In this document: one piece after another, positions 3,550 to 12,583 of the stretch | How the letters are laid out: every line of letters starts with the position of its first letter | Numbering within the stretch: position 1 is the stretch's first letter | DNA from: Yersinia vastinensis | GTDB lineage: Bacteria; Pseudomonadota; Gammaproteobacteria; Enterobacterales; Enterobacteriaceae | Assembly: GCF_902726565.1 (NCBI RefSeq) | Contig: NZ_CACVAF010000001.1 | Span: 124,001 to 188,000 of the forward strand | Direction: 5' to 3' | DNA length: 64,000 nt | Translations under genes and position numbers: made by a program | The notes under the pieces: generated by a model | What the model was told of the DNA's origin: nothing | Databases searched by the model: none | Seen by the model: the letters and a program-made list of their open reading frames with translations, nothing else

Positions 3550-3894
3550 GTGAATGATGTAGCCGCATTGAATGCAGCCGAGAACCCTGGAATGGAAGAG
3601 GCCATTATCATCACCGAGCGGGTATTAACTGAAATTACCGCGATGTTAAATGCCGAAAATATTTTCACCAATGCCGTACAACAGCAAATGTTGACATCAC
3701 ATATTCGGGCCATGGTGCTGCGCTCAATAACGGGTGAGCCATTACCTGAAGTGGATAAATCATTATTTGATGAGATTTCAGCTCATTCGATGAACATGGC
3801 GCAACAAGTGGTCGATAAGTTTGCCAATTTACCCATTGAGGAAGCTTATTTACTGTCAGTGCATTTTGAAGTCGCGAAAGATAATAACCCATAA
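3550..3894 (+). CDS. Stand-alone PRD-domain protein (EF_0829/AHA_3910-type)
   Basis: A 114-aa protein with a GTG start at 3550, preceded by GAGG at 3537-3540. It has the all-helical character of a PTS regulation domain (PRD) and no DNA-binding part. His residues such as TSHIRAM and SVHFEVA could be phosphorylation sites. PRDs are normally phosphorylated by HPr or EII components and are found inside antiterminators and activators. A free PRD as first gene of an operon is the signature of the EF_083x/AHA_391x gene set named in protein-family databases (recalled). It probably senses PTS state and acts with the regulator at the far end of the island. An ATG at 3592 is a less likely start. Confidence 0.75.
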   Translation: MNDVAALNAAENPGMEEAIIITERVLTEITAMLNAENIFTNAVQQQMLTSHIRAMVLRSITGEPLPEVDKSLFDEISAHSMNMAQQVVDKFANLPIEEAYLLSVHFEVAKDNNP

Positions 3895-3917
3895 AATTCT
3901 GATCTGGAGAAGAGACT

Positions 3918-4283
3918 ATGAGTCAAATTACCGTTGTGATTGGTGACCGTTTAGGAAAAGGCCAGAAAGTTGGGCAGGGTGTTGAATTAGCCGGTGGCCG
4001 TGTGGTGGTTATTCCCGGTGTTGCCGCAGATATGAAGTTAGGTGATGTGATGAATAGCGAAAAGGCAGACTTCGGTATTTCATTCTGTGGTAGCGGTGGT
4101 GCAGGCGCAATTACGGCGCAAAATAAATATGGTTACAAAGCAAAATATGGCATGCGTTCAATCGAAGAAGGAGTGACAGCAATAAACGAAGGCTGCAAGG
4201 TATTGGGCTTCGGATTTATGGATAAAGAAGAGCTAGGGCAGAAATTAGTGGAAGCCTATATCAAGAAATATGGTCAACCGTAA
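3918..4283 (+). CDS. Glycine-rich SFCGS-family protein
   Basis: A 121-aa soluble protein starting at the ATG at 3918 behind GGAG. It carries the family signature ISFCGSGGAG at residues 54-63, with Cys57 in a glycine-rich loop, and a second Cys at 93. There is no signal peptide or membrane segment. Molecular function is unknown. It always travels with DUF4312, DUF4311 and DUF4310 genes (recalled). Its size, position before two membrane proteins and exposed Cys resemble a PTS EIIB subunit, but that is inference from layout, not from sequence homology I can demonstrate. The stop codon overlaps the ATG of the next gene by one base. Confidence 0.85.
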   Translation: MSQITVVIGDRLGKGQKVGQGVELAGGRVVVIPGVAADMKLGDVMNSEKADFGISFCGSGGAGAITAQNKYGYKAKYGMRSIEEGVTAINEGCKVLGFGFMDKEELGQKLVEAYIKKYGQP

Positions 4284-4579
4284 TGAAAGAGCAATATACC
4301 ACCCAGGTGCAGGTAAAGGGCAACGGCGATACTAAAGCTAAAGCTTTCGCCAATGCACTTGGTCATGTCCAAAATACAGTGTTGAAGTCGACACAAAATA
4401 TTTTACTGCGAATTGAACCGCAGGACGTCAAAGTATTAAAAGCAGAATTATCAGTAAAAAATGAAAAGTTTTTATTCTTTTTTCTGCCTCGGGAAAGAAA
4501 GACATATAGCGTTGAACTCGATATTACCGTGAGCGTGACAATCATTAATACAGATAAGGTTGATTTCGTTTCTAAATAA
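4283..4579 (+). CDS. DUF4312 family protein
   Basis: A 98-aa soluble protein translated by TAATG overlap with the SFCGS gene, hence tightly coupled. It is predicted alpha/beta, with a basic, aromatic stretch FLFFFLPRERK at residues ~64-74. There are no Cys or His residues in obvious catalytic contexts. Function is unknown. It belongs to the EF_0831/AHA_3912 group (recalled). Given the strict stoichiometric coupling with the SFCGS protein and the adjacent membrane pair, it is probably a cytoplasmic subunit of the same complex. Confidence 0.85.
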   Translation: MKEQYTTQVQVKGNGDTKAKAFANALGHVQNTVLKSTQNILLRIEPQDVKVLKAELSVKNEKFLFFFLPRERKTYSVELDITVSVTIINTDKVDFVSK

Positions 4580-4655
4580 AAACAGAGCAACCTTCATTCT
4601 TGAAGCCGCATTACCAAGACATTAGGTTAATGCGATTAGCGAAAAGGATATACTG

Positions 4656-5432
4656 ATGTTTCTAATCATTCTTTTTAAGTCGATTATTATCGGCGGACTG
4701 GTTGGCGTGGGGGTTGGCGTTGGGGCCGCCCGTATGTTCCATGCGCCTACCATACAGGGAATGGGTGCGTTTCGTACCTTGGGCGAGTTGAACTCGTGCG
4801 AGGGGGATCCCGCTTCGCACTTCTCCTTTGGGCTTGGATTCTTCTTCAACGCTTGGGCTTCTTCGGTCGCCGCAGGTGCTTTTACTCAGGACGTTGACCA
4901 CCGCATTATTCCTAACTGGGGTGCTGCAGCATTGATGATTAAAAATCGCAATGTGGCGGAAACCATGCATAACCCGAAAAAAATGGCGATTGCCTGCGGG
5001 ATTATTGGTGTCATTGTTGTCAGCTTCTTAAATACCACAGCATCAGCCGTTCCAGCTGCATTACAGGTTACAGCAATTAAAGTATTGGTCCCCGCGGCAA
5101 ATATTCTGGTTAACACCGTGATGCCCGTTATTTTCTGGTTAGCTGCAATTGATGCAGGACGACGTTCCGGTTTCTGGGCCACTATTTTTGGTGGGTTGGC
5201 ACAGTTAATTATGGGCAACGCCGTACCGGGTCTGGTTTTGGGTATTTTAATTGGTAAAGGTGTTGAAGAAAGCGGCTGGAATAAAGTAACTAAAATCATG
5301 ATGACAGTCATTGTTCTGTTATTCGTGCTCAGTGGTTTCTTCCGCGGATTCGACATGAAATTCCTGGAGTCATTCAGTCTGAGTGCACCAGTATGGCTTG
5401 AAACTATTCATAACGCATTGAGCGGAAAATAA
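4656..5432 (+). CDS. DUF4311 family membrane protein
   Basis: 258 aa, strongly hydrophobic, with about six to seven predicted membrane segments (roughly residues 2-24, 55-76, 108-130, 133-160, 170-200 and 212-232). The first segment contains a glycine zipper (GGLVGVGVGVGAAR). A conserved-looking polar loop follows (GAFRTLGELNSCEGDPASHF). It belongs to the EF_0832/AHA_3913 group (recalled) and has no assigned function. It lies 15-22 bp upstream of DUF4310, another membrane protein. The two together look like the membrane part of a transporter. Confidence 0.87.
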   Translation: MFLIILFKSIIIGGLVGVGVGVGAARMFHAPTIQGMGAFRTLGELNSCEGDPASHFSFGLGFFFNAWASSVAAGAFTQDVDHRIIPNWGAAALMIKNRNVAETMHNPKKMAIACGIIGVIVVSFLNTTASAVPAALQVTAIKVLVPAANILVNTVMPVIFWLAAIDAGRRSGFWATIFGGLAQLIMGNAVPGLVLGILIGKGVEESGWNKVTKIMMTVIVLLFVLSGFFRGFDMKFLESFSLSAPVWLETIHNALSGK

Positions 5433-5453
5433 CACAGCGAGAGGAGCTTGATG

Positions 5454-6104
5454 ATGGATGAACAAACCAAGAATAATTTCTGGTATGCCGACTGGTCATT
5501 TCCGATCTTTGTAGGATTATTATCCTCTGGCGTATTTGCTGGTACCCATATGTATTATCTTTATGGTATCGGTGCATTTAACGAAGTGGCCTTTGTTTCG
5601 ATGTTACGGGCGGGAATGGATACCGGTGTTTATGGCGCAGTGGCTGCGTTTGGTGCCAGTTTCTTATTTGCCCGTATTATTGAAGGCTCACTGGTGGGTA
5701 TTTTAGATATCGGTGGTGCCATTCAGACGGGGGTTGGTCTGGGTGTGCCTGCATTATTACTGGGTGCGGGATTTGTATTCCCTGTCGCTAACTTTGCTGC
5801 CTCTTTGGTGACTGGCCTGATTATTGGTTTAGCCATCGGTTATCTGATTATTTTGGCGCGTAAATTTACGATTAACCAAAGTAATTCGACTTACGGTGCA
5901 GATGTCATGATGGGCGCAGGTAATTCATCTGGTCGTTTCTTGGGGCCATTGATTATTTTGTCAGCCATTACGGCATCAATTCCAATTGGAATTGGCTCTT
6001 TAGCTGGCGCATTACTGTTTTATCTGTGGAATAAGCCTATTACCGGTGGCGCGATCCTTGGCGCGATGATTTTAGGATCTATTTTCCCAGTCGCCATTTC
6101 TTAA
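5454..6104 (+). CDS. DUF4310 family membrane protein
   Basis: 216 aa and mostly hydrophobic, with about six membrane segments. After a short charged N-terminus (MDEQTKNNFWYADWSFP), glycine-rich helices follow, and the motif GADVMMGAGNSSGRFLGP lies in the C-terminal half. The start is taken at the second of two adjacent ATGs (5454) because GAGGAG at 5441-5446 is then 7 nt away. The ATG at 5451 is also possible. It belongs to the EF_0833/AHA_3914 group (recalled) and its function is unknown. It is the partner of DUF4311 and is followed by a large hairpin. Confidence 0.87.
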   Translation: MDEQTKNNFWYADWSFPIFVGLLSSGVFAGTHMYYLYGIGAFNEVAFVSMLRAGMDTGVYGAVAAFGASFLFARIIEGSLVGILDIGGAIQTGVGLGVPALLLGAGFVFPVANFAASLVTGLIIGLAIGYLIILARKFTINQSNSTYGADVMMGAGNSSGRFLGPLIILSAITASIPIGIGSLAGALLFYLWNKPITGGAILGAMILGSIFPVAIS

Positions 6105-6108
6105 TCTA

Positions 6109-6144
6109 CAGGGTAAATATCCAAATATCTGGATATTTACCCTG
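6109..6144 (+). other. Intercistronic hairpin after DUF4310
   Basis: A perfect 14-bp stem: CAGGGTAAATATCC (6109-6122) with GGATATTTACCCTG (6131-6144), 8-nt loop. It is followed by CCTAATTTTCG, which is only a weak T-tract. The hairpin separates the transport-like genes from the enzyme genes of the same operon, so it may be a partial terminator or an mRNA-stabilising structure. Confidence 0.8.
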
Positions 6145-6201
6145 CCTAATTTTCGCAAATAACGTCTCGTTAACCCAGATGTTTAATGGAGAATAAAGAT
6201 A

Positions 6202-7344
6202 ATGCATGACTTTATTATCAAACGAGCAGCGTTGGTTGATGGCCGTCAGGTCGATATTGCCATTAATGATGGAAAAATAGTGTCAGTTAATGAGACTCAG
6301 TCATCTTCTGAGCTAGCCAAAAAAATCATCGATTTGGCAGGGAAATATTACCTCAGCGCAGGTTGGATTGACTCTCATGTTCACTGTTACCCAGCGTCTC
6401 CGATTTATCATGATGAAGCTGATTTGGTCGGTGTTGCCAGTGGTGTCACTACGGTCGTTGACGCAGGCAGTACCGGCTCCAATGATGTGGATGATTTTTA
6501 CCGCTTAACAAGGGCAGCAAAAACCCACGTTTACGCATTTTTGAATATTGCGAAAACCGGCATTGTGACGCAAAACGAATTAGCGGATATGACGCAAATC
6601 GATAAGCAAGCGGTCAGTGAGGCAATTGCCCGCAACCCCGGTTTTATTATTGGCATTAAAGCGCGTATGAGCAGCAGTGTGGTGGGTAAAAATGGCATCA
6701 AGCCACTGGTGCGCGCTAAAGAAATTCAACAAGAAAATAATCAGTTACCTCTTATGGTGCATATTGGCAATAACCCGCCAGATCTGGATGAAATTGCCGA
6801 CTTATTAACACAGGGTGACATTATTACCCATTGCTACAATGGCAAGCCAAATCGGATTCTGACGCCAGCGGGGACGTTGCGTGAGTCTATCCAACGTGCA
6901 CTTAAACGTGGTGTGCGACTTGACGTTGGCCACGGCAGTGCCAGCTTCAGTTTTGATGTTGCAGAACTTGCCATCAAACAAGGCATTTACCCGCACACTA
7001 TCAGCTCCGATATTTATTGTCGCAACCGTCTAAATGGGCCGGTACATAGCCTTGCAACGGTCATGTCCAAATTTTTCTCCATCGGTTTGAGCCTTGAGCA
7101 AGTTATTCGTTGTGTGACAGAAAATGCCGCTCAGGCCCTGCGTTTGACCCATAAAGGGGTATTGGGTGTGGGTTATGACGCTGACTTGACCATTTTTGAG
7201 CTGAAACAGCAGCCTCAAGTCTTCAGTGATTCAGAGGGCAAATCGGTTACTGGTGAACAATATCTGGTGCCACTGGCTGCGTTTGTTGCCGGTGACTTAG
7301 TATTAACTGACGAAGGGAAGTTAAAAGATGTCTTCAGTCTATGA
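6202..7344 (+). CDS. Amidohydrolase/deacetylase-type metallohydrolase
   Basis: 380 aa from the ATG at 6202. It is an amidohydrolase-superfamily TIM barrel of the EF_0837/AHA_3915 type (recalled). The metal motif HxH is at residues 59-61 (DSHVHC), followed by the likely bridging carboxylated Lys in GIKARM (~residue 154), His in MVHIGNN and THCYNG, and Asp in SSDIYC. The family includes N-acyl amino-acid and amino-sugar deacetylases, so cleavage of an amide or cyclic amide on the island's substrate is likely. The exact substrate cannot be read. The 3' end overlaps the next gene by 17 nt. Confidence 0.85.
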   Translation: MHDFIIKRAALVDGRQVDIAINDGKIVSVNETQSSSELAKKIIDLAGKYYLSAGWIDSHVHCYPASPIYHDEADLVGVASGVTTVVDAGSTGSNDVDDFYRLTRAAKTHVYAFLNIAKTGIVTQNELADMTQIDKQAVSEAIARNPGFIIGIKARMSSSVVGKNGIKPLVRAKEIQQENNQLPLMVHIGNNPPDLDEIADLLTQGDIITHCYNGKPNRILTPAGTLRESIQRALKRGVRLDVGHGSASFSFDVAELAIKQGIYPHTISSDIYCRNRLNGPVHSLATVMSKFFSIGLSLEQVIRCVTENAAQALRLTHKGVLGVGYDADLTIFELKQQPQVFSDSEGKSVTGEQYLVPLAAFVAGDLVLTDEGKLKDVFSL

Positions 7345-8440
7345 AAAATACCAGTTAAAGCAGGTTATTAATGCTTCAGGTCGTATGACGATGCTGGGGG
7401 TTTCGACGCCACGGCAAGATGTGGTTGATGCTGTGGAGCTGGGCCTGAACCATTACTTTGAAATGAAAGATCTGGTGAATAAAACCGGCGCTTACATTGC
7501 TAAATTACTGAATGTTGAAAGCGCGGTAGTTGTCGCCTGTGCTTCTGCCGGTATTGCTCAATCAGTTGCGGCAGTGATCGTCAAAGACGATGCCAATTTA
7601 TTGGTTAACTTGCATGCTGCCCCACGTACCGTGCCTCATGAGATTGTGCTGCCGAAAGGCCATAACGTTAACTTTGGTGCACCAGTCGATACCATGGTCA
7701 CGCTGGGTGGCGGTAAAGTGGTGGAGGCCGGTTATGCCAACGAGTGTTTACCTGAGCAGTTGGAAGCGGCTATCACATCAAATACTGCGGCGATCTTGTA
7801 TATAAAATCCCATCATTGTGTACAAAAAAGCATTCTCTCTGTTGAGCAGGCCGTCGTCATTGCTCGCAAGCATCAATTGCCATTAATTGTTGATGCGGCG
7901 GCGGAAGAAGACTTGCAGTGTTATTACCAAATGGGTGCTGATTTGGTGATATACAGCGGTGCTAAGGCCATTGAAGGGCCAACCAGTGGCTTGGTGTTGG
8001 GTAAGAAAACTTATGTTGAATGGGTGAAGTTGCAATCCAGCGGTATTGGTCGAGCCATGAAAGTCGGCAAAGAGGGTATTCTCGGTCTGACCCGTGCCAT
8101 TGAAAGCTACATGACGCTGGAGAAAGAGACTGGCCAACAGATGGTCGCGAAAATGACACCATTTATCAGCCAGTTGAATACTATTGATGGTGTCTCAGCC
8201 AAAGTGGTGTGGGATGCGGCTGGGCGCGATATTGCTCGCACTGAAATCAGTTTTGATGAAGCTAAAATTGGCCGTTCGACACCCGATTTGGTCGATGCAC
8301 TTAAAAATGGCGATATTGCAATTTATTTCCGCGCTTATAAAGCCAACGAAGGCAAGATTGAAGTCGATGTACGCAGTGTGACGTCATCACAGCTTGAAAC
8401 CATTTATACCTGCATTAACCGTTTGGTTCAGGGAGCCTAA
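7328..8440 (+). CDS. DgaE-like PLP-dependent ammonia-lyase (SelA-related)
   Basis: 370 aa. The fold-type I PLP enzyme signature YSGAKAIEGPTSG carries the Schiff-base Lys, with the preceding Asp in LIVDAAAEED. It is related to selenocysteine synthase SelA and to Salmonella DgaE, which removes ammonia from D-glucosaminate-6-phosphate to give 2-keto-3-deoxygluconate-6-phosphate (family knowledge). The next gene is a KDGP aldolase, exactly the partner DgaE needs, which strongly supports a similar reaction here. Translation is coupled to the amidohydrolase by the 17-nt overlap. Confidence 0.85.
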   Translation: MSSVYEKYQLKQVINASGRMTMLGVSTPRQDVVDAVELGLNHYFEMKDLVNKTGAYIAKLLNVESAVVVACASAGIAQSVAAVIVKDDANLLVNLHAAPRTVPHEIVLPKGHNVNFGAPVDTMVTLGGGKVVEAGYANECLPEQLEAAITSNTAAILYIKSHHCVQKSILSVEQAVVIARKHQLPLIVDAAAEEDLQCYYQMGADLVIYSGAKAIEGPTSGLVLGKKTYVEWVKLQSSGIGRAMKVGKEGILGLTRAIESYMTLEKETGQQMVAKMTPFISQLNTIDGVSAKVVWDAAGRDIARTEISFDEAKIGRSTPDLVDALKNGDIAIYFRAYKANEGKIEVDVRSVTSSQLETIYTCINRLVQGA

Positions 8441-8443
8441 GTC

Positions 8444-9184
8444 ATGAAATTAACGCCAAATTATTACCGTGACCGGGTATGCCTGAATGTGCTGGCCGGT
8501 TCAAAAGAGAATGCGAAAGAGATTTATCAGGCCGCGGAAGGCCATGTGCTGGTGGGCGTATTATCGAAAAATTATCCGGATGTCGACAGTGCAGTCAAAG
8601 ACATGCGTGAGTACGCCGCACTTATCGATAATGCGCTGTCCGTCGGGCTGGGTGCCGGTTGTCCGAAGCAATCGGCGATGGTCAGCCAGATTTCGCAGCA
8701 GGTTCAGCCACAGCATGTGAATCAGGTATTTACTGGTGTTGGTACTAGTCGTGCCTTGCTGGGCCAAAAAGATACCGTCGTCAACGGCTTGATTTCACCT
8801 ACCGGCACAGTGGGATATGTGAAAATTTCGACTGGCCCGCTCAGTTCACAACAAGAAGATGCGATTGTCCCAGTCACTACTGCCATTGCCATGTTGAAAG
8901 ACATGGGCGGCAGCTCGGTGAAATTCTTCCCGATGAATGGACTGGATTCTATCGAAGAATACCGTTGTGTCGCGGAGGCGTGCGCTGCTACCGGTTTCTG
9001 GCTGGAACCCACTGGTGGCATTGATCTGGAGAATTTCGAGGAAATCCTGCAAATCGCGTTGGATGCGGGTGTAACAAAAATTATTCCGCATATTTATAGC
9101 TCAATCATTGATAGTCAGAGTGGTAATACGCGCCCAGAAGATGTGAACACTTTACTGGATATCATGAAGAGGATTGTACCGTAA
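8444..9184 (+). CDS. KDGP aldolase family protein (DgaF-like)
   Basis: 246 aa, starting 3 nt after the DgaE-like gene. It belongs to the EF_0839/AHA_3917 aldolase group (recalled), a class I TIM barrel. The probable Schiff-base Lys is in GGSSVKFFPMNGL, with the phosphate-site motif EPTGGIDLENF near the C-terminus. The predicted reaction cleaves 2-keto-3-deoxy-6-phosphogluconate (or an isomer) to pyruvate and glyceraldehyde-3-phosphate. With the preceding gene it forms the lower pathway of the island. Confidence 0.87.
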   Translation: MKLTPNYYRDRVCLNVLAGSKENAKEIYQAAEGHVLVGVLSKNYPDVDSAVKDMREYAALIDNALSVGLGAGCPKQSAMVSQISQQVQPQHVNQVFTGVGTSRALLGQKDTVVNGLISPTGTVGYVKISTGPLSSQQEDAIVPVTTAIAMLKDMGGSSVKFFPMNGLDSIEEYRCVAEACAATGFWLEPTGGIDLENFEEILQIALDAGVTKIIPHIYSSIIDSQSGNTRPEDVNTLLDIMKRIVP

Positions 9185-9226
9185 CTGGCTGATTTATTGA
9201 CTATAAATTGAAATAAGTGTGAAAGC

Positions 9227-9260
9227 ACCGTCAGGGCCATGCTCTGTATGCCCTGACGGT
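9227..9260 (+). other. Intercistronic hairpin after the aldolase gene
   Basis: A perfect 11-bp inverted repeat, ACCGTCAGGGC (9227-9237) with GCCCTGACGGT (9250-9260). No T-run follows (AAACGG). It lies in the 173-bp gap before the exported lactonase gene. It is probably an mRNA 3'-stabilising hairpin or rho-assisted stop rather than an intrinsic terminator. Confidence 0.75.
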
Positions 9261-9357
9261 AAACGGTATGTGTCGCACTATTTTACCTGTGAGTCTGGAT
9301 GTTAGGTTGGATAGCTCTCCATACCCTCTGATAGCCATTCCCTGTGAGAAAAATAAT

Positions 9358-10578
9358 ATGCCTAACCCAACACATTCCGCAGTAAAAAGCCTGTCAGCGG
9401 GCATCGCACTGGCGATGGTCACGTTGATAAACCCGCTGGCGCATGCCGAACAGATGGCCGATAAATCATTCGCTTATGTCGGCACCTATCATCCGAACGG
9501 TGAAGGCGTTTATCGCCTACAAGTCGATGCCAAGACTGGTGAGTTGACGGAGAAAACCTTGGTCAGTTCACTGGCTAATCCAGCACAATTAGTGGTGGAT
9601 GCTCAGGGTAAAACGCTGTATGTCGCCAGCGAAGTGGCTGATTACAACGGCGGTAAACATGGGGCGATTGCGGCATACAGCATTAACTCTGCTGACGGCA
9701 ATTTGACGCTGATAAATCAGGTGGACTCTCAAGGCGCGGGGCCAGTGTTCCTCTCATTGACGCCGTCTGGCAGCCATTTACTGGTGGCAAACTATATCAG
9801 TGGGTCGGTGGCCGTTTTCCCGGTGCAAAGTGGTGGCAAACTTTCTGATGCCAGTTCGGTACAGCAAGATGAAGGCCCCGCGGGCGCGGCTAAACCGGCG
9901 GCCGCAGTGGAGGGGAGCTTTGCTATTAGTGATCACAATGGGCCACATGCACATATGATTGCCAGTGATCCGAGCGGTAAATTTGTATTTTCTACTGATT
10001 TGGGGTTGGATCGAATTTATCAATACCGCTTTGATGCAGACAATGGCAAGTTGATACCTAATGATCCCCCCTACATCAGTGCATCCTCTGCGGGAGCAGG
10101 CCCACGTCATTTTGTATTCCATCCTAACGGCAAGACGCTATTCTTAATCAACGAAGAAGCCTCAACCTTGACCAGTTATGAGTTGGACTTGCAGAAAGGC
10201 ACGTTGAAACCGCTAAATACCTTGTCGTCGTTACCGGCAGATTATCGTGGCACGAGCTTCGCTGCGGGTTTGACGCTCTCAAAGGACGGAAAATTTCTGT
10301 ACGTAGCAAACCGTCTGCATAACAGTATTGGCCAGTTTGCTGTGACAGCCGATGGCAAATTTAAGCCTGTGGAAGATGTCTGGACGCGGGGAGATTATCC
10401 GCGCACGTTGGTACTTGATCCGACAGGTCACTACCTGTATGCCATGAATCAACGCAGCGATAACATAACTCGCTTTAAAGTTGATCCGCAAAGTGGCAAA
10501 TTGACCTTTGTACCCGGCTATACCGCGGTTGGCAGCCCATCACAAATGGTGTTTGTACCTTCAGCACAGAAAAAGTGA
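9358..10578 (+). CDS. Exported lactonase-family beta-propeller (6-phosphogluconolactonase-like)
   Basis: 406 aa from the ATG at 9358. In-frame codons upstream do not encode a better start. A signal peptide covers residues 1-~27 (hydrophobic SAGIALAMVTLINPLAHA-EQ). The mature part has the repeating strands of the 7-bladed lactonase propeller (YVGTYHPNGEGVYRL..., YVASEVADYNGG..., DHNGPHAHMI, GAGPRHFVFHPNGK, YVANRLHNSIGQF). Cytoplasmic members such as Pgl/YbhE hydrolyse 6-phosphogluconolactone. The export signal suggests action on a non-phosphorylated sugar lactone in the periplasm. Its position between the aldolase and the regulator ties it to the island. Confidence 0.83.
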   Translation: MPNPTHSAVKSLSAGIALAMVTLINPLAHAEQMADKSFAYVGTYHPNGEGVYRLQVDAKTGELTEKTLVSSLANPAQLVVDAQGKTLYVASEVADYNGGKHGAIAAYSINSADGNLTLINQVDSQGAGPVFLSLTPSGSHLLVANYISGSVAVFPVQSGGKLSDASSVQQDEGPAGAAKPAAAVEGSFAISDHNGPHAHMIASDPSGKFVFSTDLGLDRIYQYRFDADNGKLIPNDPPYISASSAGAGPRHFVFHPNGKTLFLINEEASTLTSYELDLQKGTLKPLNTLSSLPADYRGTSFAAGLTLSKDGKFLYVANRLHNSIGQFAVTADGKFKPVEDVWTRGDYPRTLVLDPTGHYLYAMNQRSDNITRFKVDPQSGKLTFVPGYTAVGSPSQMVFVPSAQKK

Positions 10579-10654
10579 TGTGAGGAGCGCGCCCCGTCGG
10601 TAATGCTGGCGGGGAATGCCTCGATAACTATCTTCTAAATAACGGAGTGGAGCA

Positions 10655-12583
10655 GTGAGATTTCCCTATCAACGTCTGGCCTATATGTTCGATGCGCTGC
10701 AATCGGAAACGCTGCCTCAGGAGGAGTTGGCGAAACGTTTTGCGGTCTCGACACGTACAGTACGGGCAGATATTACGGCGTTGAATGAGATTCTTGAGCA
10801 TTATGGTGCGCATTTTATACATAACCGTGGCTTTGGTTATCGACTGATGATTGATGATGCCGAGCGCTTTCGTGCTCTACAGCAACAAAATCGTAAAATG
10901 CACCTAACCCCGCGTACTGCCAATGAGCGGGTGCACTATCTATTAATCCGTTTTCTGACCTCTGCCTTTTCATTAAAGCTGGAAGATTTAGCTGACGAAT
11001 GGTTTGTTAGCCGTGGCACATTGCAAAATGATATGGCTGAGGTGAGAGAAAGGCTAAATCGCTATCATCTGACGATTGAAACCAAACCCCGTTATGGCAT
11101 GAAATTGTTTGGTACAGAACTGGCTATCCGTACTTGTCTGACGGATTTATTGTTCCAGTTACAATTGCAGGATGCCGATAACCCATTATTAAAGAATGAG
11201 TTTCTTAGCATCCAAACCATGCCGGAATTGACGGGGTTGCTGCATGAATTATTAGCGCAATATGCGGTGCGGTTGACTGATGAAGGAGAGCAATACCTGA
11301 TTTTCTACTGCGCAGTGGCAATAAAACGCATCACTGATGGTTATCCATTATCTGATTTTGATGCAGAAGATGTGGATGAGGCGGTGAAGTTGGCCTCAGG
11401 CCGTTTAGCAAATGAGCTTAAGTTGTTATCAGGTAAAGATATTTCAGCAGCAGAAGAGGCTTATCTTCGTGTGAATATTGCGGCTCGCCGGGTTCAGGCC
11501 AGTCAGCCTAGCACCAGTCGGCCTAGTGAAATCAATGCTGATGACGAAGAGACGCTAGTGGACTACATCCTCTCGTATATCAATGCTCACTATAACTATA
11601 ATTTGCAGAGTGATAAGCAGCTGCGGATTGATTTACTGACCCATATCAAGACCATGATAACTCGGGTGAAATATCAGATTACGATTCCTAACCCACTGTT
11701 ATCTAATATTAAACAGCATTATCCCATGGCCTATGATGTGACATTGGCCGCGGTTTCCAGTTGGGGAAAATACACTCCTTATAGCTTGAGTGAAAACGAA
11801 ATTGGCTATTTGGTGCTGCATATTGGGGTTGGGTTGGAGCGCCATTATAATATCGGTTATCAACGCCATCCACAGGTGATGCTGGTGTGTGACACGGGCA
11901 ATTCCACTACTCGTATGATTCAGGCGCAAATTTCTCGTAAGTATCCACAGATCGTGATGACACAGACAATTTCCCTGCGTGATTACGAAAATCTTGAGCA
12001 TATCGACGAAGATTTCATTATTTCTAATTCGCGATTAGCGGAAAAAAATAAGCCAGTGGTGGTGATGTCACCCTTCCCGACGGAATATCAGTTGGAGCAA
12101 TTGGGTAAGCTGGTCTTGGTGGATCGCACGCGGCCTTACATGCTGGAAAAGTTTTTTGATAGCAATCACTTTATGATTATCGACCAACCGATGACTCAAG
12201 AGCAGTTGTTCAAGAAAGTGTGTACTCAGTTAGAAGAAGAGGGGTTTGTCGATGCGGATTTCTACCCGTCAGTGGTGGAGCGCGAGGCGATTGTCTCCAC
12301 TATGCTGGGTGAGGGGATCGCGCTGCCGCATTCACTGGGTCTATTAGCCAAGAAAACGGTGGTCGTCACTTTACTGGCACCTAATGGAATCGCTTGGGGT
12401 GACGGTGAGGTAGCCCATGTTATTTTCTTGCTGGCTATCAGTAAAACCGATTATGAAGAAGCGATGGCCATTTATGATTTGTTCGTGACCTTTGTGCGCG
12501 AGCGCTCTATGAGCCGTTTATTGAGCAGTCAACATTTTGATAGTTTTAAGGCTATTGCGATTGATTGTTTGAGTCGCATTTAG
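10655..12583 (+). CDS. PTS-regulated transcriptional activator (BglG/MtlR type)
   Basis: 642 aa with a GTG start at 10655 behind GGAGTGGAG. Domains in order: DeoR/HTH_11-like helix-turn-helix (residues ~5-65, FAVSTRTVRADITAL), a second Mga-like HTH (~85-160), PRD1 (~170-280), PRD2 (~295-400, YLVLHIGVGLERH), EIIB-like domain with Cys412 in VCDTGNST, and EIIA (fructose/mannitol type) with His559 in GIALPHSLG. Such regulators are activated or silenced by PTS phosphorylation and substrate supply (family knowledge). As the last gene of the island, it most likely controls it. No AAA+ domain is present, so it is not a LevR-type sigma-54 activator. Confidence 0.88.
   Translation: MRFPYQRLAYMFDALQSETLPQEELAKRFAVSTRTVRADITALNEILEHYGAHFIHNRGFGYRLMIDDAERFRALQQQNRKMHLTPRTANERVHYLLIRFLTSAFSLKLEDLADEWFVSRGTLQNDMAEVRERLNRYHLTIETKPRYGMKLFGTELAIRTCLTDLLFQLQLQDADNPLLKNEFLSIQTMPELTGLLHELLAQYAVRLTDEGEQYLIFYCAVAIKRITDGYPLSDFDAEDVDEAVKLASGRLANELKLLSGKDISAAEEAYLRVNIAARRVQASQPSTSRPSEINADDEETLVDYILSYINAHYNYNLQSDKQLRIDLLTHIKTMITRVKYQITIPNPLLSNIKQHYPMAYDVTLAAVSSWGKYTPYSLSENEIGYLVLHIGVGLERHYNIGYQRHPQVMLVCDTGNSTTRMIQAQISRKYPQIVMTQTISLRDYENLEHIDEDFIISNSRLAEKNKPVVVMSPFPTEYQLEQLGKLVLVDRTRPYMLEKFFDSNHFMIIDQPMTQEQLFKKVCTQLEEEGFVDADFYPSVVEREAIVSTMLGEGIALPHSLGLLAKKTVVVTLLAPNGIAWGDGEVAHVIFLLAISKTDYEEAMAIYDLFVTFVRERSMSRLLSSQHFDSFKAIAIDCLSRI

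Follow-up and report, generated by a model that had tools for sequence, protein, structure and literature searches.

Ten plus-strand genes at positions 3550 to 12583 of a 64,000-nucleotide stretch of Yersinia vastinensis DNA (hereafter the window) include four, encoding SFCGS, DUF4312, DUF4311, and DUF4310, whose products are probably the subunits of a permease for N-acyl-glucosaminate that is energised by the phosphotransferase system (PTS) and shows no sequence relationship to the EII proteins we compared them with. On this reading the whole cassette would let the cell take up, with energy from the PTS, and degrade an N-acylated 2-amino-2-deoxy-aldonate, N-acetyl-D-glucosaminate (GlcNAc1A) being the likeliest one, and we consider the arguments for and against it to be about evenly balanced. 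Its parts differ in strength: import and catabolism as such are quite likely, phosphorylation by the permease could go either way, and the choice of N-acetyl-D-glucosaminate as the substrate is more tentative still.

In the mechanism that we propose, in which transport, phosphoryl transfer, the part played by Cys57 of SFCGS, and the substrate itself are all inferred, the membrane channel would consist of DUF4311 and DUF4310, with SFCGS and DUF4312 as subunits on the cytoplasmic side; import would be coupled to phosphorylation at O6 through a phosphoenolpyruvate relay passing from EI to HPr, to an EIIA, and then to SFCGS, with Cys57 as the candidate phosphoryl carrier; the amidohydrolase would strip the acyl group; DgaE would remove ammonia from the 6-phosphate to yield 2-keto-3-deoxygluconate-6-phosphate (KDGP or KDG-6-P), which the aldolase would split into pyruvate and glyceraldehyde-3-phosphate; and the PRD protein and the terminal regulator would turn the operon on in response to the phosphorylation state of the permease.

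Layout of the cassette

NCBIfam and Pfam name every one of the ten genes:

3550..3894, + strand, stand-alone PRD protein (TIGR03582, EF_0829/AHA_3910 family; NCBIfam/Pfam)
3918..4283, + strand, SFCGS (TIGR03577/PF14272), small, without hydrophobic segments (NCBIfam)
4283..4579, + strand, DUF4312 (TIGR03578/PF14189), small, without hydrophobic segments (NCBIfam)
4656..5432, + strand, DUF4311 (TIGR03580/PF14188), polytopic membrane protein (NCBIfam)
5448..6104, + strand, DUF4310 (TIGR03579/PF14187), polytopic membrane protein (NCBIfam)
6202..7344, + strand, amidohydrolase/deacetylase (TIGR03583, EF_0837 family; NCBIfam), near PDB 8wzy and 2ics
7328..8440, + strand, DgaE-family pyridoxal phosphate (PLP) ammonia lyase (TIGR01437; NCBIfam)
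8444..9184, + strand, KDGP aldolase of the DgaF type (TIGR03581, NF047796; NCBIfam)
9358..10578 (start taken at 9358), + strand, seven-bladed lactonase, optional (NCBIfam/Pfam)
10655..12583, + strand, HTH-Mga-PRD-EIIB-like-EIIA regulator (Pfam)

The last base of SFCGS is the first of DUF4312 (position 4283), and the amidohydrolase and DgaE genes overlap by 17 bases (7328-7344). Elsewhere the spacers measure 23 bases between the PRD protein and SFCGS, 76 upstream of DUF4311, 15 upstream of DUF4310, 97 upstream of the amidohydrolase, 3 upstream of the aldolase, 173 upstream of the lactonase (from its start at 9358), and 76 upstream of the regulator. We read the N-terminal stretch of the lactonase as a Sec signal peptide. 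A preliminary description of this DNA had given the same gene order, positions, and overlaps, and had seen no recognisable EIIC or EIID; NCBIfam and Pfam recognise neither in the cassette of the window. Pfam does place an EIIA_2 domain in the terminal regulator, which also has, around residue 412, a Cys-containing stretch that we read as EIIB-like.

Eight of the window genes exceed the cut-offs of the models for the EF_0829-EF_0839 / AHA_3910-AHA_3917 cluster (TIGR03577-TIGR03583 and TIGR01437), whose families were previously defined as hypothetical equivalogs or subfamily; by these scores the window is a plain member of that already defined cluster. None of these models assigns a function to SFCGS, DUF4310, DUF4311, or DUF4312. 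The cluster enzymes of Enterococcus faecalis are mentioned in the literature, and an open-access search returned nothing that dealt with any of the four DUF families or with a phosphorylated route for GlcNAc1A.

A phosphorylated substrate and a sensed permease

Residue conservation was counted over representatives from which sequences at least 95% identical, open reading frames covering less than 85% of the query, and locus L001 (the window itself) had been removed; the counts of 42, 82, 37, and 46 in the conserved-residue analysis, to which matched segments from larger stretches were added, and the counts of 47 and 50 all include the window, and Aeromonas caviae L033, in which the cassette reads as broken, enters some alignments only.

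According to a structural and docking study of Salmonella DGL (PMC9529869), the substrate phosphate lies near Arg301, Arg332, and Arg346, and His162 and His163 sit on a loop; R304, R335, R349, H162, and H163 of the window DgaE align with these residues. The phosphate arginines, His163, and the PLP lysine (K213 in the aligned chain, numbered 217 in PMC9529869) are invariant in 47/47 sequences and His162 is present in 46/47. Close to the carboxylate, the position of Arg226 is occupied by Lys in 25 of the 47 and by Arg in the other 22. Because the phosphate arginines, His163, and the PLP lysine are kept, the DgaE substrate is expected to be phosphorylated. NCBIfam and Pfam scans recognise no kinase family in the window cassette, so that phosphorylation at entry would be the economical answer. 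An amidohydrolase that precedes a D-amino-acid-type lyase suggests, in addition, that the substrate is N-acylated; a GlcNAc1A route of Pseudoalteromonas likewise leads through a deacetylase and a PLP deaminase toward KDG-6-P, in unphosphorylated form (PMC9537276).

PRD regulators report on a cognate PTS permease, and the four DUF proteins are the sole candidate in the cassette for the permease that is sensed. In the terminal regulator, His559 of the EIIA domain and the PRD histidines His330 and His389 occur in 50/50 representatives and Cys412 in 47/50. The stand-alone PRD protein scores 40.7 in a profile comparison with the first PRD of the regulator and 32.0 against four YhfY sequences, for which the highest of 100 shuffles was 23.2; a comparison with a single YhfY was not significant (26.1, best shuffle 26.9) and was set aside. 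By these profile scores the PRD protein is related to both, more closely to the regulator's first PRD than to Escherichia coli YhfY.

A further link to the PTS comes from Bartonella sp. HY406 and HY761, in which the cassette lies on plasmids of about 55 kb and the next gene is annotated ptsP. In the HY406 product an HPr domain (residues 9-86) is joined to three EI domains, and the HY761 fusion, from the 21.6 kb examined, is 99.7% identical to it. Its nearest relatives outside Bartonella, among the matches listed (15 of 193), belong to Caballeronia/Paraburkholderia at 54-55%; in C. grimmiae, the one neighbourhood opened, the relative directly precedes the EIIBC gene ptsG, so that in Bartonella the cassette stands in the position of an EII gene. 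The HY406 plasmid gene table, which like such tables in general is incomplete, contains no further EII. The same plasmid carries its replication/ParA genes twice, in inverted orientation and with identical protein accessions (L142:274-7254), and a type VI secretion cluster takes up a large part of it.

These observations also bear on a different division of labour, in which the four proteins would be a non-phosphorylating carrier, a PfkB-type kinase encoded elsewhere would make the 6-phosphate, and the PRD proteins would sense the general state of the PTS. Such a carrier would agree with the missing EII similarity, with the PfkB kinase found after DgaE in E. faecalis, and with the known GlcNAc1A route, which has an SSS carrier and a late kinase (PMC9537276); it agrees less well with a window cassette in which no kinase is recognised and with the dedicated HPr-EI that accompanies the Bartonella copies, and we regard it as unlikely, if by no means negligible.

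SFCGS is a distant relative of RpiB

When the SFCGS profile was compared with 89 E. coli proteins or domains, PTS parts included, RpiB ranked first. Specifically, i) SFCGS scored 33.1 over 74 columns against a four-sequence RpiB alignment, for which 60 column shuffles gave 12.3 +/- 2.4 and at most 17.1; ii) a wider SFCGS alignment scored 31.8 over 31 columns, where the highest of 60 shuffles was 18.5, and a 20-shuffle control of SFCGS against RpiB likewise gave 31.8, with a best shuffle of 20.0; and iii) E. coli YhfU scored 33.4 over 28 columns, against 17.7 for the highest of 60 shuffles. We conclude from these alignments that SFCGS, like YhfU, is a distant relative of RpiB/LacAB (PF02502), a relationship that is new here. 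Direct homology between SFCGS and YhfU was rejected (20.8, best of 60 shuffles 23.1), and the two are linked only through RpiB. Nor were the Pfam LacAB_rpiB matches accepted by themselves: they occur in 19/22 members with a best E of 0.0012, that scan also gives the unrelated DUF1685 and Cecropin E values of a few thousandths, and the window SFCGS scores 16.3 bits against PF02502, short of the gathering score of 24.7. As an ordinary EIIB, SFCGS did not rise above 20 shuffles in comparisons with AgaB/AgaV, UlaB, GatB, SrlE, and ManX, and YhfU likewise bears no resemblance to the EIIB proteins tested.

The active site of RpiB consists of a Cys in a Gly-rich loop and the His of an RQHND motif, both catalytic, and the Cys-Gly loop handles sugar phosphates. 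Cys57 of SFCGS, invariant in 42/42 sequences, is paired with the Cys of this loop, and Ile89 lies opposite the RQHND histidine in the alignment over 74 columns; because Ile89 replaces that histidine, isomerase activity of SFCGS is unlikely. We propose from this pattern of residues that SFCGS is a phosphoryl or substrate carrier of the permease. A bolder idea, and one that we hold to be rather doubtful, gives the four proteins a separate evolutionary origin as a PTS permease: an RpiB-family isomerase would have become its phosphocysteine carrier, in the role of EIIB, and the E. coli pair YhfU/YhfT would be a second, diverged branch of this PRD-linked class.

The membrane pair and the comparison with known EII proteins

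DUF4311 and DUF4310 each have several hydrophobic segments and invariant polar residues, among which are His29, His55, His82, and His105 of DUF4311 (37/37 sequences) and His34 of DUF4310 (46/46), and we propose that they are the two membrane halves of the permease. Comparisons with known PTS proteins were negative. Pfam scans of 22, 22, 21, and 26 members of the four families returned no PTS family up to E 1; profiles of the E. coli sorbitol, ascorbate, mannose, galactosamine, and galactitol PTS, each built from one or two proteins per system and informative to that sensitivity, showed, for none of the four proteins, a match that exceeded shuffles along a stretch longer than 15 columns; and DUF4311 and DUF4310 showed no detectable similarity to EIIC or EIID of the mannose, sorbitol, and ascorbate systems. 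A sequence search of the PDB with the four proteins found no credible match. Two weak resemblances were discarded: DUF4310 scored 18.6 against mannose EIIC, above all 20 shuffles, yet over only 15 columns, and partial matches of DUF4311 to DUF2232 (21/22 members, best E 0.0004) were treated as an effect of composition. AlphaFold models had pLDDT values of 45.8 for DUF4311 and 54.0 for DUF4310, and fold searches with the low-confidence DUF4310 model were uninformative.

The kinship of SFCGS with isomerases raises the alternative that, instead of transporting, the four proteins make up an enzyme complex in the membrane, for example a sugar-acid isomerase or epimerase built on SFCGS, and that a general porter handles import. 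Between Yersinia and Enterococcus, moreover, DUF4311 (67% identity) and DUF4310 (70%) exceed the amidohydrolase (47%) and DgaE (54%) in conservation. We did not retain exceptional conservation as an argument: ManY, a true EIIC, reaches 63% identity between its E. coli and Enterococcus forms among the matches listed (30 of 215), and conservation of this degree is thus compatible with transport. With the acid/base pair of the isomerase lost at Ile89, and with no other permease in the conserved cassette, an enzyme complex seems to us distinctly improbable.

Weighing the proposal

The E. faecalis locus differs in arrangement. The regulator comes first, followed by the PRD protein through DUF4310 in cassette order, and downstream lie an EIIC, a small unknown protein, a MupG-like hydrolase of the phosphoglycosidase type, the amidohydrolase, DgaE, an aldolase stretch that is absent from the gene table, and a PfkB kinase. 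Because an ordinary EIIC adjoins the cassette genes, this locus may combine two uptake routes.

Several points count against a PTS permease for GlcNAc1A: i) the four proteins are, at the level of sequence, without similarity to the EIIA, EIIB, EIIC, and EIID proteins tested; ii) the match between SFCGS and RpiB is local, covering 74 columns in the first alignment and 31 in the wider one; iii) DUF4312, the least conserved of the four, has no conserved His or Cys and hence no phosphate-carrying residue; iv) the only EIIA seen in the cassette is that of the regulator, and the E. faecalis regulator has none detected at E <= 0.01; v) with its ordinary PTS EIIC and its PfkB kinase, the E. faecalis locus could achieve phosphorylation otherwise; vi) the chromosomes of Bartonella HY406 and HY761 lie outside the data, and an EII could be encoded elsewhere in those cells; vii) DgaE passes the wider TIGR01437 but scores 364.7 bits, under the 600-bit cut-off of NF047797, the model of the tested enzyme, so that its substrate may be a close variant; viii) a supply of substrate by the cell's own chitin-active lytic polysaccharide monooxygenase (LPMO) was rejected, in that chitin LPMO genes occur in 28/115 cassette carriers and 20/131 other genomes (Fisher p = 0.08; the genomes with the weakest DUF4311 matches, G381 and G480, are counted as non-carriers and small symbiont genomes are included), no clear association; ix) no LPMO was found in the genome of the window; and x) a chitin study of Aeromonas reports only traces of GlcNAc1A and no confirmation of an oxidative route (PMC11653859).

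The same mechanism could act on a different N-acyl 2-amino-2-deoxy-aldonate or on an aldonate-ended disaccharide, for example N-acetylgalactosaminate or, in Enterococcus, chitobionate, as the score of DgaE under the NF047797 cut-off and the MupG-like phosphoglycosidase and extra EIIC of the E. faecalis operon would allow. The aldolase, at 398.1 bits over the 300-bit cut-off of NF047796, favours the gluco series, and we think another substrate of this kind less probable than its absence, though a serious contender.

The preliminary description had suggested a permease, perhaps a phosphotransferase, for an N-acylated or lactone form of an amino-sugar acid. Its N-acylated version gains from the 6-phosphate site of DgaE, the conserved phosphorylation sites in the regulator, and the Bartonella HPr-EI, loses from the want of similarity to EIIB, EIIC, and EIID, and is not proven. 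The lactone version has the presence of a lactonase gene in its favour, but that gene occurs in only 33/80 loci, which places the lactone outside the core.

Conservation and spread

A scan of genome contigs gave at least 541 DUF4311 relatives, of which the best 80, all from Enterobacterales, were kept as the locus set, and we define the core cassette as nine genes, the ten less the lactonase. The PRD protein, SFCGS, DUF4312, DUF4311, and DUF4310 are present in 80/80 loci and the complete nine-gene set in 78/80, the other two being cut short by contig ends. Gene order is identical in 76/80 loci; because the same order recurs there and beyond, a chance arrangement is excluded. The order from the PRD protein to DUF4310 is fixed, with the enzymes after it, and the regulator moves to the front in locus L104 and in E. 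faecalis. At L054 (position 8120 onward) SFCGS and DUF4312 matches, the former weak at 144 bits, share one open frame, by either fusion or frameshift. Four open reading frames of 319-320 residues, possibly paralogues, lie upstream of the cassette in one genome (L166:2541-7223).

Of 12 larger stretches opened, nine, from outside the family of the window, have the full nine-gene core with its order unchanged; one stops short at a contig end, one comes from the genus of the window, and one is decayed. The decayed locus, in the same taxonomic order (L172:7579-11000), has a full-length DgaE-type frame amid short fragments of SFCGS, the amidohydrolase, the aldolase, and the regulator. DUF4311 of the window is 100% identical to its counterparts in Y. 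alsatica and Y. frederiksenii. DUF4311 matches occur in 117/246 family genomes, two with weak matches, and in 1/274 of the class, namely the window's own, and DUF4310 matches in 42/295 genomes of the order and 12/398 of the phylum; the range of DUF4311 extends to Bartonella and Enterococcus. Many family genomes (for example G438, G292, and G498) also give second-site DUF4311 matches of about 40-60 residues, mostly below the cut-off (profile about 130-186), and an E. coli control likewise gives short DUF4311 matches.

With DUF4311 in fewer than half of the family genomes, and with no megablast match of the cassette DNA in 5,426 E. coli genomes, the term accessory used in the preliminary description is apt. 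Its term island finds no support, and a genomic island was rejected as a reading: the left neighbours PmbA and cytochrome b562 (pmbA, cybC) are shared by the window and Klebsiella pneumoniae, the right neighbours being different, and base composition is ordinary, with a G+C content of 0.43-0.49 in the cassette, as against 0.46-0.51 over the remainder of the first 24 kb.

Several PLSDB 'plasmids' that contain the cassette are of very large size, at 4.9 Mb in A. caviae, 5.4 Mb in K. pneumoniae, and 0.75 Mb, with housekeeping genes, in E. faecalis; these entries (L033, L035, and CP125156) look like mislabelled chromosome sequence. In A. caviae L033, parts of the cassette match weakly or not at all.

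Comparison with known systems

The cassette is common, with DUF4311 in nearly half of the family genomes and also in Bartonella and Enterococcus, and one testable function for its four proteins would settle their annotation. If phosphoryl transfer is true, it would mean one more independent origin of PTS permeases, with an isomerase turned phosphate carrier.

Within the EF_0829-EF_0839 / AHA_3910-AHA_3917 cluster, Enterococcus adds the EIIC, the small unknown protein, the MupG-like protein, and PfkB, and has the regulator at the front. The Salmonella DgaABCDEF system has, like the window, DgaE/DgaF-type enzymes that act on a 6-phosphate; there, according to PMC9529869, D-glucosaminate enters through the PTS proteins DgaABCD, which the title of a paper cited there calls a mannose-family permease, whereas the window has four unrelated proteins in that place and an added amidohydrolase. 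With the ong pathway of Pseudoalteromonas (PMC9537276) the cassette shares deacetylation followed by PLP-dependent deamination toward KDG-6-P; the ong intermediates, in contrast, are unphosphorylated until 2-keto-3-deoxygluconate (KDG), import is by an SSS carrier, the kinase acts late, and OngC is grouped with D-amino-acid deaminases and D-threonine aldolases.

Both SFCGS and YhfU align with RpiB/LacAB (PF02502) at the Cys-Gly loop far above shuffles, SFCGS without the RQHND His. The E. coli operon yhfZYXW-php-yhfUTS combines a lone PRD protein (YhfY), the RpiB-related YhfU, and one polytopic membrane protein (YhfT) with a phosphotriesterase-type hydrolase and PLP-type enzymes; its enzymes differ from those of the cassette, and it has one membrane protein where the cassette has two. 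The idea that DUF4311 and DUF4310 are parts of YhfT was dropped, there being no sequence signal for it. The genome of the window has two yhf-type operons, one with yhfZ, Y, X, php, U, and T matches (L176, contig C7) and the other with yhfY, X, W, U, and T and without php (L177, contig C6). We propose tentatively, above all as regards the membrane proteins, that the cassette and the yhf operon are both PRD-linked uptake modules, and our reading of the cassette, if true, would supply a mechanistic hypothesis for the uncharacterised yhf operon of E. coli.

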